In this document: positions 23,398-28,232 of the stretch, piece after piece
How positions within the stretch are numbered: the first letter of the stretch is position 1
How the letters are laid out: every line of letters starts with the position of its first letter
Source: Rhizobium sp. Q54
GTDB lineage: Bacteria; Pseudomonadota; Alphaproteobacteria; Micropepsales; Micropepsaceae
Length of the DNA stretch: 64,000 nt
Assembly: GCA_945882615.1 (NCBI GenBank)
Contig: CAMCWK010000011.1
Span: 1 to 64,000 of the forward strand
Direction: 5' to 3'
The notes under the pieces: model-generated
Told to the model about the DNA's origin: nothing
The model's database searches: none
The model's input: only the letters and a program-made list of their open reading frames with translations
Position numbers and translations under genes: made by a program

Positions 23398-24018
23398 ATG
23401 CGAAGCCTGGGCGACATTCTCTACAATTTTCACTGGGTGGTGCCGGGCGAGGCGTCGCGGGCGATGCAGGCTTGGGCCGGCGGCCTGGGCGCATTCCTCA
23501 GGGTGCGCGGCATCCGCGCCATCATCAATCTGCGCGGCCGCAATGACGATCTGTCCTGGTGGAAAAAGGAGACCGCGACCGCGCAAACCCACGGCATCGC
23601 CCATCTCGACGCCATGCTGGATTCGCGCAAGCTCCCCAGCCGCGAGATGCTGGCGCGGCTGATCGAAAGCTTCAACACCGCGCCCAAGCCCTTCATGCTC
23701 AAATGCTCAGGTGGGCAGGACCGTACGAGTTTCGCGGCGGCGCTGTATCTGATCTATCGCGACGGCTGGGACGCGCTGCCAAAGGCACGGGCCCAGTTCG
23801 CACGCTATCCCTATCTGCATTTTCCCAAGCGGCAGCAGCGCTGGCTGAAAGCGTTTGTGGATTTTGCGATTGAGGATTCCGGCGGCCTGCCGCTGGAACA
23901 GTGGATCGCACAGCGTTATACGCCGGAAGATCTGAAAGCCTGGCTGGACAGCCATGGTCTTGAGGATGGTTATGCCGCGATCTTCACCGCGCCCACGCGC
24001 AGTCCCTATCAATGGTAA
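23398..24018 (+). CDS. Cysteine-based tyrosine/dual-specificity phosphatase-like protein
   Basis: 206 residues. The CX5R active-site loop is C103-SGGQD-R109-TS, with INLRGRNDD (about 43-51) in the place of the strand before the general-acid loop, as in atypical dual-specificity phosphatases. The usual His before the Cys is replaced by Lys (LKC). Substrate unknown. No ribosome site precedes the ATG and the divergent gap is 33 bases, so a leaderless or very short-leader mRNA is possible. Its 3' end overlaps alkB. Confidence 0.75.
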   Translation: MRSLGDILYNFHWVVPGEASRAMQAWAGGLGAFLRVRGIRAIINLRGRNDDLSWWKKETATAQTHGIAHLDAMLDSRKLPSREMLARLIESFNTAPKPFMLKCSGGQDRTSFAAALYLIYRDGWDALPKARAQFARYPYLHFPKRQQRWLKAFVDFAIEDSGGLPLEQWIAQRYTPEDLKAWLDSHGLEDGYAAIFTAPTRSPYQW

Positions 24019-24640
24019 GCCGCCCCTGGGCAATTCGCTGACAATTGCGCCGGGCGTGTTGTTGTTGCGCGAGAGATTCTCGCCGCTCCAGCAACAGGCG
24101 TTGCTGGCGGATGTGCTGGAACGCCTCAAGCTGGCGCCGCTGTACCGTCCGGTCATGCCGGGCACCGGCAAACCCTTCTCAGTAGAGGAAAGCAGTTTCG
24201 GCGCCCTGGGCTGGGTGGCGGACAAGGCGGGCTATCGCTATCAGCCGACCCATCCGGTGACAGGCAAACCCTGGCCCGCGATTCCGCCGGCGCTGCTGGC
24301 GCTCTGGCGCGAGATCAATGACGGCCCCGCGCCGGAAAGCTGCCTGGTCAATTTCTATGGCGCGGGCGCCAAGATGGGGCTGCATCAGGACCGGGATGAG
24401 AAAGACACCAGCGCCGCGGTGATCGGGATTTCGCTGGGCGACACCGCTCTTTTCCGCATCGGCGGCACAGCACGTAGCGGCAAGACGGTGAGCGTCAGCC
24501 TCGCCTCGGGGGATGTGATCGTGTTCGGCGGCCCGTCGCGGCTGGCCTATCACGGCATCGACCGCATCAGGCCCGGCACGTCGCGCTTGGTACCGGGCGG
24601 GGGACGAATAAGTCTGACCCTGCGGCGGGTGACGGTTTGA
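23972..24640 (+). CDS. alkB: AlkB-type DNA/RNA oxidative demethylase
   Basis: About 222 residues. It is an Fe(II)/2-oxoglutarate dioxygenase: iron ligands in LHQDRDE (HxD) and YHGIDR, and the 2-oxoglutarate arginine motif RISLTLRR at the end; NFYGAGAKMGLHQD is typical of AlkB. It repairs 1-methyladenine and 3-methylcytosine. In-frame ATGs at 23954, 23966 and 23972 all lie inside the phosphatase gene. I chose 23972 because GAGG stands six bases before it, giving a 47-base overlap and likely coupling. Confidence 0.92.
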   Translation: MPRSSPRPRAVPINGKPPLGNSLTIAPGVLLLRERFSPLQQQALLADVLERLKLAPLYRPVMPGTGKPFSVEESSFGALGWVADKAGYRYQPTHPVTGKPWPAIPPALLALWREINDGPAPESCLVNFYGAGAKMGLHQDRDEKDTSAAVIGISLGDTALFRIGGTARSGKTVSVSLASGDVIVFGGPSRLAYHGIDRIRPGTSRLVPGGGRISLTLRRVTV

Positions 24641-24650
24641 GACGATGGCC

Positions 24651-24683
24651 AAAAAAAAAGCCCCCGGCGCGAGGCCGGGGGCT
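24651..24683 (-). terminator. Strong terminator facing the minus strand
   Basis: On the minus strand AGCCCCCGGC, a five-base loop, GCCGGGGGCT, then nine T. The 10-bp GC stem and long T run mark a transcript end more than 200 bases after the nearest minus-strand gene, which is why a separate small RNA is suspected. The hairpin also follows alkB on the plus strand, but without a T run there. Confidence 0.9.
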
Positions 24684-24793
24684 AATGCGCTTAAATGCGC
24701 GAGAAGCTGCCGGGAGGGGATGACCGGGAGCCTCAGCGAAGACGGGAGCTGAAAGCGAGCGGGGGGCAGTGCCAGCAGCTCAAGGCCGTCTTC
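24651..24793 (-). ncRNA. Candidate structured small RNA, about 143 nt
   Basis: In the 268-base gap between alkB and the PuuD-like gene, the minus strand has a promoter-like pair (24829-24801), a transcript with nested pairing, and a strong terminator. From 24793, GAAGACGG pairs with CCGTCTTC (24745-24738), GAGCTG inside it pairs with CAGCTC, then come unpaired TCATCCCCTCCCGG, a small GCGC-ATTTAA-GCGC hairpin and the terminator stem. The C-rich TCCCCTCCC could pair with Shine-Dalgarno sequences. It lacks conserved SRP and 6S features I could recognise and has no convincing ORF. It could instead be the 3' UTR of the PuuD-like gene. Confidence 0.5.
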
Positions 24794-24800
24794 GAGGAGT

Positions 24801-24829
24801 AAACTATGCAAGAATAGAACATGTTTCAA
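24801..24829 (-). promoter_or_regulatory. Candidate promoter of the small RNA
   Basis: Minus-strand TTGAAA (24829-24824), 17-base spacer, TAGTTT (24806-24801), inside a markedly AT-rich stretch (24795-24905). The spacer end and -10 (TTGCATAGTTT) are identical to those of the rpmJ promoter at 43313-43341. Confidence 0.5.
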
Positions 24830-24908
24830 GAAAATTCGAACTTAAGAAGAATTACATCATTTTTAGAGTGACAATTACATTTATGCCACATTCGTTCGCA
24901 GTAAAAAC

Positions 24909-25655
24909 CTAGCGATTCCGCCTTTGGCGCGGCTGACGCAGGGCATCGCCAAAGGCCGCAAACAGGGCCCGGCTGAGGCCATCCTCCGCCCAGCGCCATT
25001 CCGGATGCCATTGCACCCCCAAGAGGAAGCCCGCCGCCCCCGGCATGGAAACCGCTTCGATCTGGCAGTCGGGCGCGGTCGCCTCGGCTTCCAGCCCCAG
25101 CGCCAGGCGGTCCACGCCCTGATGATGCAGCGAATTGACCATCACCTCCTCCAGCCCCGACAGACGCGCCAAGAGGCCGCCGGGCGCCAGTCGCACGGCA
25201 TGGGCTGCGGCATATTCCTGGTCGCGCGAGGCGTTCTGCGGCTCGCGGTGATCCAGGCGGCCGGGAATCTCATGGACGTGCTGGTGGAGCGTGCCGCCCA
25301 AGGCGACATTGAGTTCCTGAAAACCGCGGCAGATGGCCAGCACGGGAACGCCGTGGGCAATCGCAGCTTTGAGCAGGGGAAGCGTGGTCGCATCGCGCGC
25401 GCCATCCAGCTCGGTGCCGGCACGCAGGCTGCCGCCATAGTGGGACGGGGCGACATTGGAGGGGGCGCCGGTGAACAGCAGCCCGTCCACCGCAGCCAAT
25501 ATGTCGTCCACTGCCAGCGGCGTGTCTGTTGAAGGGATCAGAAGCGGCAGGGCGCCGGCACCATCGCGAATGGCGGTGACATATTCGTCATTGACCTGAT
25601 GCGTGGGCATGTCGCCCGACATGCGACGGTCGGTCACCAGCCCCGCGACCGGCAT
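24909..25655 (-). CDS. Class I glutamine amidotransferase-like hydrolase (PuuD / peptidase C26 type)
   Basis: 248 residues. The nucleophile is C109 in AICRGFQELN, and the His/Glu of the triad lie in QWHPEW near 223. LHQHVHEIPG and VNSLHHQGVD match gamma-glutamyl-GABA hydrolases (PuuD). Relatives cleave gamma-glutamyl amides; no other polyamine gene is present, so the substrate is open. The start ATG overlaps the lolA stop (TAATG). The C-terminus ends in a basic RQPRQRRNR tail. Confidence 0.88.
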   Translation of the reverse strand: MPVAGLVTDRRMSGDMPTHQVNDEYVTAIRDGAGALPLLIPSTDTPLAVDDILAAVDGLLFTGAPSNVAPSHYGGSLRAGTELDGARDATTLPLLKAAIAHGVPVLAICRGFQELNVALGGTLHQHVHEIPGRLDHREPQNASRDQEYAAAHAVRLAPGGLLARLSGLEEVMVNSLHHQGVDRLALGLEAEATAPDCQIEAVSMPGAAGFLLGVQWHPEWRWAEDGLSRALFAAFGDALRQPRQRRNR

Positions 25656-26296
25656 TATCTGCTGCTTTGCTTGATCTTGACGGCCTTGGCCGGCACGGCG
25701 AACAGCGCCTGGTCCAGGCTGCCGCCGGTTTGCGCGCCCTGCAGCGCCACGGTGGTGACGCCGCCCTGATTGTCCTTCACCGTCCATTGCCGCAGTTCGA
25801 TGACGGGCGCGGAAAAGACCAGCGTGATGTTGGAAGTGTTGCGGTTGGTGCTGGTGCGGGCGCGCACGATCAGTGCGCCGTCCTGCTCGGTGACGCCCAG
25901 CACGGCCCGGTTGCGCGCCAGGTCCACCTTCGCATTCAGCAGCAGCCCCAGCGGCGTGTCGTCGAGATCATAATTGTCGACCGTATTGAGCCGGGCATTT
26001 TTCACATAGATCCGGCCGCCCGTGGCGACGATGCTGACCGGATTGGGGGCGCGGAAGGCAAAGCGGATGCGACCGGGCTTTTCGAGATAGAGTTCGCCCT
26101 GGTCGGCATTGCCGTCCGGCCGGATCTGGACGAATTCGCTGCGCAGCGTGCGGATGCTGTTCAGATAGGCGCTGATGCGGTCGAGATGGGCTTTCTCCTG
26201 CGCGCTGAACGACTGGAAAATGCGCTGGGGAACCTGGCCGGCGCCGGTCAGGCAGACGATGGAGAAGGCGGCGATCAGAAGTGGAAAACGGCGCAT
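25655..26296 (-). CDS. lolA: LolA-like outer-membrane lipoprotein carrier
   Basis: 213 residues with an N-terminal signal peptide (MRRFPLLIAAFSIVCLTGAG). The LolA fold is visible: a helical start (RISAYLNSIRTLRSEFVQ), then GELYLEKPGRIRFAF, RIYVKNARLNTVDNYDL and TPLGLLLN. LolA carries lipoproteins across the periplasm. The frame is open further upstream, but the signal peptide fixes the start. It is paired with the PuuD-like gene and divergent from gpsA. Confidence 0.85.
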   Translation of the reverse strand: MRRFPLLIAAFSIVCLTGAGQVPQRIFQSFSAQEKAHLDRISAYLNSIRTLRSEFVQIRPDGNADQGELYLEKPGRIRFAFRAPNPVSIVATGGRIYVKNARLNTVDNYDLDDTPLGLLLNAKVDLARNRAVLGVTEQDGALIVRARTSTNRNTSNITLVFSAPVIELRQWTVKDNQGGVTTVALQGAQTGGSLDQALFAVPAKAVKIKQSSR

Positions 26297-26411
26297 CTTG
26301 GGAGGCTCACACGGCAATGGGGAGAAAATCGGGCAATTTGCGCCGCATCCGGCTTTGCGGCCATACAGGGGCAAGATAGGGTCTCAAGCTGAATAAACAA
26401 CCAACGAATTG

Positions 26412-27820: not shown

Positions 27821-28135
27821 TCACGCCGACAGCTTCATCAGCGTCAGCCCGCTGACGATCAGACCCGCCGCCGCAAGGCGCATTGCGGTTACCGGTTCCC
27901 CCAATAGCGCGATGCCCAAAACAAATGTGCCGACCGCCCCGATCCCGGTCCAGATCGCATAGGCGGTGCCCAGCGGCAGGGCGCGCAGCGATAGCGATAG
28001 GAACAGCAGGCTTCCCACCAGCGATGCCAGCGTGATCAATGTGGGAACGGTTCGGGTAAAGCCCTGCGATTGCTTCAGGTAATAAGCCCAGACGATTTCC
28101 AGGACGCCCGCGAGCAACAGATAAAACCAGGCCAT
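27821..28135 (-). CDS. gdx: SMR-family guanidinium exporter (Gdx/SugE type)
   Basis: 104 residues with four predicted membrane spans. The essential proton/substrate glutamate is E13 in LAGVLEIVWAYYLK. The SugE/Gdx signature is LPLGTAYAIWTGIGAVGT, which separates it from EmrE-like multidrug pumps. Gdx proteins exchange guanidinium for protons. The call is reinforced by two ACGR-loop hairpins of a guanidine-II riboswitch in its leader. It may also be read from the MFS-GNAT genes just upstream. Confidence 0.93.
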   Translation of the reverse strand: MAWFYLLLAGVLEIVWAYYLKQSQGFTRTVPTLITLASLVGSLLFLSLSLRALPLGTAYAIWTGIGAVGTFVLGIALLGEPVTAMRLAAAGLIVSGLTLMKLSA

Positions 28136-28203
28136 GACGGCTCTCCGAAAAAGAGCCGGGCCGTCCCGGTCGGTGTGCGGCGAAATGCAGGGTCGTCCCC
28201 GCA
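28136..28203 (-). promoter_or_regulatory. Guanidine-II (mini-ykkC) riboswitch
   Basis: On the minus strand two hairpins each carry the ACGR tetraloop that defines the class: TGCGGGG-ACGA-CCCTGCA (28203-28186) and CCGGG-ACGG-CCCGG (28169-28156), with a 16-base linker. Directly after, CGGCTCT and AGAGCCG form a stem that hides the GGAGAG ribosome site two bases before the gdx ATG region. Its left arm shares bases with the second aptamer hairpin, so guanidinium binding would free the ribosome site. Confidence 0.85.
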
Positions 28204-28232
28204 CCCCCAACTTAGGCCATCAGGCCCCGGCT

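Follow-up and report, generated by a model that had tools for sequence, protein, structure and literature searches.

Introduction

The closest described system to the locus that I will discuss here is RusT (CCNA_R0199) of Caulobacter crescentus, a 118-nt Hfq-bound RNA encoded between lolA and xth (Vogt et al., 2024; PMC11005374). In the passages of that paper drawn on here, RusT folds into four stem-loops, the last of which is its terminator, it is contacted by Hfq at stem-loop 3 and depends on Hfq for regulation, and its stem-loop 2 carries a conserved stretch (nt 45-57), with C53 tested by mutation; compensatory mutation was restorative for two targets, CCNA_00210 and ompW, but not for a third, CCNA_02895. 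The targets of RusT include TonB-dependent receptors and OmpW, its promoter is occupied and repressed by NtrX, its inducers are iron starvation and zinc, and a rusT deletion strain grows normally under both of these stresses (PMC11005374). The same paper reports that homologs occupy this position in those Caulobacteraceae that are close relatives of C. crescentus (PMC11005374). A second Caulobacter sRNA, GsrN, exposes a cytosine-rich 5' loop and has predicted targets that are G-rich, as described in part of the paper on it (PMC5869019).

The window, by which I mean the whole 64,000-nucleotide stretch of DNA that was analysed (contig CAMCWK010000011.1, from Rhizobium sp. Q54), holds an element on the minus strand between an alkB-like and a PuuD-like gene, where a sequence-only reading had placed a candidate small RNA. 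That element is best read as a small RNA (sRNA) gene that has a promoter and a terminator of its own, and the sequence analyses described below support this. I consider it likely that this predicted sRNA is a free-standing, trans-acting ortholog of RusT, with its own sigma-70-type promoter, an intrinsic terminator and C-rich loops that would act on G-rich ribosome-binding sites. RusT itself is already known from Caulobacteraceae, and with the window sRNA most likely being its ortholog, the new part is a class-wide family and an extra C-rich loop; the literature search, which covered an open library only, found no description of this RNA outside Caulobacter.

The predicted gene and its fold

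Read directly from the minus-strand letters, the promoter TTGAAA-N17-TAGTTT lies at 24829-24801 as first proposed, with the -35 hexamer TTGAAA at 24824-24829, the -10 hexamer TAGTTT 17 nt away at 24801-24806, and the predicted transcription start at 24793 on the same strand. A strict sigma-70 scan of window positions 24300-25300 called no promoter, because TAGTTT is a poor match to TATAAT. The predicted transcript (24651-24793, minus strand) is a 143-nt sRNA of the RusT type with four stem-loops, as judged by its fold, model matches and covariation. Its computed fold of -70.1 kcal/mol (z -5.82) was equalled by 0 of 200 shuffles (mean -49.4 kcal/mol, sd 3.55), and this prediction agrees with the structured 143-nt transcript that had been claimed.

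All four stem-loops are predicted on the minus strand. Stem-loop 1 (SL1), the 5' hairpin, spans 24738-24793 and is seen in the single fold, in the folds of relatives and in the cross-family alignment A6; stem-loop 2 (SL2), the probable seed hairpin with the loop TCATCCCCTC, spans 24703-24734 (fold and A6); stem-loop 3 (SL3), with a GCGC stem, spans 24687-24700 and is paired in 100% of its cells in A6; and stem-loop 4, the intrinsic terminator, spans 24651-24683, from strand reading, terminator scan and A6. In the terminator scan a stem of 10 pairs, 9 of them GC, is called at 24683-24659, and a T9 run is read at 24659-24651 of the minus strand, so that both the ten base pairs and the nine T first described are found. 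The covariance models R1, R2 and R3 match the window from 24654 or 24655 to 24794.

Conservation and covariation within the genus

When 61 genomes, the window's own included, were searched at the DNA level, 30 loci (L001-L030) were returned, all from the same genus, and both C-rich loops are kept in all 30, as are the terminator and the four stem-loops. Eight representatives that were taken from other genomes and folded one by one form essentially the same four stem-loops with z-scores of -4.9 to -8.4. An alignment made from sequence only (A1) gave a poor consensus structure in which SL2 was missing, because helix lengths vary, and it was replaced by model-fitted alignments. The covariance model R1, built from seven sequences, recovers the 30 genus loci and the window, plus a weak false row from the minus strand of L021 at 23.3 bits, and on whole genomes it finds a match in 35 of the 37 members of the genus; G006, which has no R1 match, carries the sRNA according to BLAST (L009), and in the genus member G001, a 93% complete genome, neither R1 nor BLAST found the sRNA.

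Alignment A4 comprises 31 distinct rows, the false L021 row included, and in it 95.6% of the cells are paired, and both partners have changed in 35 of the 42 pairs. Counts of this kind are favoured by the fitting of both A4 and A6 to the structure. None of 500 shuffles reaches any of five measures computed on A4, and pairing falls to 35-47% when the partners are slid by 1-3 columns.

Spread across Alphaproteobacteria

Matches of R1 in other families of the class show the same form in G039, G044, G051 and G037; a further match, G047 at E 0.02, does not show it and was rejected. Broader models were built from 42 sequences (R2) and 45 sequences (R3), and at E<=0.01 R2 matches 61 of 386 genomes of the class, 56 of them outside the genus, and R3 matches 57 of 386, 52 of them outside the genus, so the broader model brought no gain in genomes found. 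A contig scan by a 16-base pattern yielded 119 stretches, of which 84 were put to a model; R1 at E<=1e-8 found five members among them (L088, L117, L083, L078, L068) and R2 three further ones (L147, L151, L176), and all eight are from alphaproteobacterial metagenome-assembled genomes, among them UBA1301. In A6, the alignment across families (45 rows, of which 44 are distinct), 94.9% of the cells are paired, with changes on both sides in 39 of 42 pairs. The sequence-only reading had named a covariance search and compensatory changes in relatives as ways to check it, and both have now been run with strongly positive outcomes (A4, A6 and R2).

In a sample of the phylum, R2 matched 18 of 249 genomes, and the five outside the class are all Pseudomonas P15 (RF00627; L212-L216, five genomes of one family) at 34-39 bits. 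P15 is probably a structural look-alike and was rejected: it is without C-rich loops like those of the window sRNA, and in three of three loci checked no homolog of lolA, xthA or any other marker was found nearby. A Streptosporangium stretch, L140 (R1, 30.1 bits, E 0.0016), was likewise taken as a chance match. Given P15 at 34-39 bits with R2 and Streptosporangium at 30 bits with R1, score alone is not to be trusted below about 45 bits.

The locus and its neighbors

On the minus strand of the window the order is LolA, PuuD-like gene and sRNA, followed by convergent AlkB-like and phosphatase-like genes, in keeping with the position between alkB-like and PuuD-like genes first assigned to the element. 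The locus marker is a LolA-family gene at 25655-26374 (minus strand; Pfam PF03548, 4.8e-25), and between it and the sRNA lies a PuuD-like glutamine amidotransferase gene at 24909-25787 (minus strand; Pfam Peptidase_C26, 2.3e-69), which as listed overlaps lolA and whose start was probably called too early. The AlkB-like 2OG-Fe(II) oxygenase gene (23954-24640, plus strand; Pfam PF13532, 6.3e-54) runs toward the sRNA and ends 10 nt from its terminator.

Gene order was surveyed with HMMs for LolA, ExoIII, PuuD-like, aminotransferase, AlkB-like and phosphatase-like proteins in up to 5 kb on each side of 60 matches, and 50 of these are not from the genus (45 of the 56 R2 matches that lie outside it and five of six additional class matches); G039, G044, G153, G170, G173, G245, G250, G253, G314, G388, G405 and G630 were left out of this survey. 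Among the 50 non-genus loci, LolA is encoded upstream within 5 kb on the sRNA strand in 37 and ExoIII (xthA) downstream in 34, with both in 27 and either in 44, and in 20 of the 50 both are present with no adjoining PuuD-like or aminotransferase homolog. Neither marker was found within the examined stretch in the remaining six, namely G412 (aminotransferase only), G361, G132, G197, G086 and G107. Of the 27 R2 matches below 45 bits, 23 lie at the lolA-xthA locus; by chance, a genome-wide search would not be expected to land there, and gene order is independent of the structure-fitted alignments. In the ten genus loci surveyed, LolA is upstream in six, ExoIII (xthA) was found downstream in none, and the downstream side has the convergent phosphatase-like gene in all ten and the AlkB-like gene in eight; a PuuD-like gene is present at the sRNA locus in several other families too. 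Through structure and gene order the sRNA can be traced through 28 families, of which 27 are represented in the 44 syntenic loci and one is the family of the window; its common place is downstream of lolA and, in most of the other families surveyed, ahead of xthA. Judged by these sequences it is a conserved sRNA kept by many alphaproteobacterial families at the same chromosomal place as RusT.

Comparison with RusT and other RNAs

The window sRNA resembles RusT, as far as the cited passages describe the latter (PMC11005374), in being on the lolA strand with LolA upstream, a placement shared in that 44 of the 50 non-genus loci have lolA and/or xthA, in having four stem-loops of which the last is an intrinsic terminator, and in presenting a conserved cytosine seed in the loop of stem-loop 2; C53 of RusT would fall within the CCCC run, as inferred from its position and not from the RusT sequence. 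Its SL3 is the counterpart of the RusT stem-loop that Hfq contacts (PMC11005374), and a role for SL3 in Hfq binding is by analogy only. The two RNAs differ in length (118 nt for RusT and about 143 nt in the window), in SL1, where the window sRNA has an extra conserved C-rich loop unseen in two Caulobacter-like loci, and in their surroundings, since in the window the PuuD-like gene separates lolA from the sRNA, which has no xthA next to it. Orthology is thus argued from locus, architecture and the loop-2 seed, and not from a sequence identity computed against RusT.

Caulobacteraceae were marked among 60 genomes by a search for the holdfast protein HfaA, which identifies the family by inference only: the family f61 scores 136.5-143.1 bits in three genomes and 27 bits in a fourth (G098), G261, G249 and G330 of two other families are also above the cut-off at 72-87 bits, and Caulobacter alone was positive among 14 control genomes. 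Another candidate marker, the RNA CC2171 (RF01867), matched 21 of 77 genomes and was abandoned as too unspecific, HfaA being the better one. As a separate observation, CC2171 is over its cut-off in five of the 77 genomes (G105, G119, G127, G298 and G604), which belong to four families of the class, a distribution wider than one genus. In the two Caulobacteraceae-like genomes G604 and G298 of f61 (HfaA 137.7 and 143.1 bits), the sRNA model matches between lolA and xth, and these loci hold UAUCCCCUCCC or CAUCCCCUUCCC. The scores are weak, at 37.1 (R2) and 41.0 (R3) bits for G604 and 30.4 (R2) and 31.5 (R3) bits for G298, the latter dropping out with R3 at E<=0.01; the model search gave no sRNA match in G098. 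The predicted stems 1-3 of G604 and G298 differ from the four-hairpin form, and no SL1 C-rich loop was seen in either locus.

These two loci speak for another origin of the gene, in which a distinct C-rich anti-Shine-Dalgarno sRNA that does not descend from RusT came to occupy the locus independently: they are alike to the window sRNA in little beyond loop 2 and the terminator, they score no higher than 30-41 bits, and their SL1 differs. I regard such a coincidence as unlikely, since there is agreement in locus as well as in the order of elements, and the matches grade from 146 down to 31 bits, mostly at one locus, and descent shared with RusT remains the preferred reading.

The sequence-only reading had found no known RNA family for this element, and this stands for Rfam and fails for RusT, a known sRNA at the same locus in Caulobacter (PMC11005374). 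None of the 4227 families of Rfam 15 reaches its gathering threshold at the sRNA, be it in the window, at 10 other loci or at 15 further loci of the class, and at a permissive threshold nothing appears at the sRNA except look-alikes of its 3' part: alphaproteobacterial ar14 (RF02344; 20.6 bits against a threshold of 58.8), suhB/mmgR (RF00519; 23.8 against 41) and Burkholderia anti-hemB (RF02837; 29.4 against 49.5). What these three have in common with the window sRNA is a C- and U-rich single strand ahead of a strong terminator. The 6C RNA of Actinobacteria has two hairpins with C runs in their loops; it differs in phylum and layout, and the Rfam scans give no match to it at the sRNA. GsrN is similar in its exposed C-rich loop (PMC5869019), but its homologs have a sigma-EcfG promoter and lie mostly at a general stress locus, whereas the window sRNA has TTGAAA/TAGTTT and the lolA-xthA locus, and identity with GsrN was rejected on account of that locus and of the promoter, which is of sigma-70 type in all 30 genus loci.

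Elsewhere in the window a Guanidine-II riboswitch (RF01068, 47 bits) was recognized at 28156-28204 on the minus strand, at the start of a frame for an SMR-type exporter (27821-28210, minus strand; SMR from reading the translation), whose listed TTG start is probably too early. A guanidine riboswitch with an SMR exporter is the usual arrangement for guanidine export.

Two C-rich loops

The exposed C-rich sequence pointed out earlier, CATCCCCTCCC, is indeed present in the SL2 loop (24712-24722, minus strand) and is the probable target-pairing seed: the loop core ATCCCCTCC is invariant in the 30 genus sequences, and CCCC is present in loop 2 in 45 of the 45 rows of A6. The exposure of cytosines is double and goes beyond the single loop first described, the apical loop of SL1 being C-rich as well (GCACTGCCCCCCGCTCGC, 24755-24772, minus strand), with a core that is invariant in the genus alignment. 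The SL1 loop is mostly of the form GCRYUGCCCCC..GCUNGC, and TGCCCCC is found in it in 38 of the 45 rows of A6, from seven families, and is missing or altered in the remaining seven. This conservation of sequence suggests that the SL1 loop is a second seed or a protein site.

On a rival reading the molecule would be a protein-binding RNA, a sponge or scaffold that acts through its conserved C-rich loops with no mRNA pairing, and the strong conservation of about 18 nt of SL1 loop in the seven A6 families, longer than one target site demands, speaks for it. I think this improbable, given that loop 2 of RusT pairs with the ompW and CCNA_00210 mRNAs by compensatory mutation (that for CCNA_02895 failed), as reported in the cited passages (PMC11005374), and that C-rich sRNA loops are known seeds in the portion of the GsrN study drawn on here (PMC5869019). 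An sRNA that pairs with mRNAs is the reading retained below.

Promoter and upstream element

The pattern TTG-N5-TGT is found at the promoter position in 30 of 30 genus loci, and bases that this pattern does not fix are also held at the same spacing, namely a G at the end of the spacer in 29 of 30 and a C in 30 of 30, together with the first T (29 of 30) and the second A (30 of 30) of the -10 hexamer at the same distance. These counts bear on whether the structure could be a cis element of the PuuD-like gene, such as its terminator or a structure in its 3' UTR. That gene is upstream on the same strand in the window, and terminators occur in such places anyway; with a promoter of its own in every genus locus, and with an upstream neighbor that varies (PuuD-like, LolA, aminotransferase) as the RNA stays, a cis element is very unlikely. 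A short protein-coding gene, the 216-aa TTG-started frame at 24179-24829, can practically be dismissed, for the frame is open but runs antisense through alkB, and the region varies by compensatory pair changes and indels with its loops constant.

Upstream of the promoter of this predicted sRNA gene, the genus shares the consensus TGTGGCA-n-A-n-TT-nnn-ACTGTCATTAAAAA, read in the window as TGTGGCA...TTGTCACTCTAAAAA at 24861-24890 (minus strand), and this candidate element is likely an operator, to judge from its conservation. In 23 of the 30 genus loci an exact CTGTCA is present either at -46/-45 or at -35/-34 relative to the -35 box, two distances that differ by one helical turn, against one locus of 30 over the following 70 nt; the window itself has the variant TTGTCA. 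A related repeat, TGTGGC-N5-TGCATA, conserved in the genus, occupies the promoter spacer (window 24823-24801, minus strand). By analogy with RusT, NtrX as the factor of this operator is only a suggestion.

Proposed mechanism and targets

Modelled on RusT, metal or envelope stress would cause a repressor such as NtrX to leave the promoter region and transcription to rise, the sRNA would be held by Hfq through SL3 and the U-tail, and loop 2 (CAUCCCCUCCC) would block translation by pairing with G-rich sequence that lies at ribosome-binding sites or close to them, the main targets being mRNAs of outer-membrane transporters, for example TonB-dependent receptors. The conserved C-rich loop of SL1 might serve as a second seed, a step with less support than the others. 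The genome encodes Hfq, and by this analogy the sRNA probably silences mRNAs through C-rich loops on ribosome-binding sites; its mode of action would be anti-Shine-Dalgarno, and C-rich loops as seeds fit the RusT results in the cited passages (PMC11005374).

The complement of the seed, GGGAGGGGATG, resembles a Shine-Dalgarno sequence and the start that follows it, and with one mismatch it has 25+22 matches in the genome of the window, one of them being the opposite strand of the sRNA itself, against 10+11 for a control. Few of the 30 near-matches to the seed complement that were inspected are at plausible starts, and the best placed of them is L311. At this place, the sequence GGGAGGGGTTG immediately precedes the ATG start codon for an NHL-repeat protein that is predicted to be exported (about position 1500 of L311, minus strand; C1:186316-186326 of the same genome).

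The same genome yielded 12 TonB-receptor genes, and GGGG precedes a candidate start in six of these 12 and in 15 of the 91 ORFs that served as controls (one-sided p 0.015), the controls being unverified frames that include those of the window, which itself holds one receptor gene. Duplex energies of loop 1 or loop 2 with the TonB-receptor genes showed no difference from control (p 0.17 and 0.13), and these comparisons give only a hint of TonB-receptor targeting.

Discussion

Base-pairing sRNAs are mostly seen as fast-evolving and limited to a genus or family, and here one sRNA has been followed through 28 families of one class with no Rfam entry. What was a Caulobacter-only regulator thereby becomes open to comparison throughout the class, in its targets, its use of Hfq and its response to metals. 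I would give an even chance to a broader proposal, in which an ancient sRNA that controls the cell envelope became fixed next to lolA, the gene for the lipoprotein carrier, in much of Alphaproteobacteria, and RusT is a branch of it. The main form would have two independent C-rich seeds, one in each of its first two hairpins, and the Caulobacter branch would have lost or reshaped the first seed. If this is true, one RNA with two seeds could silence two sets of G-rich ribosome-binding sites. The covariance model is available to annotators for a gene that automatic annotation with Rfam would miss.
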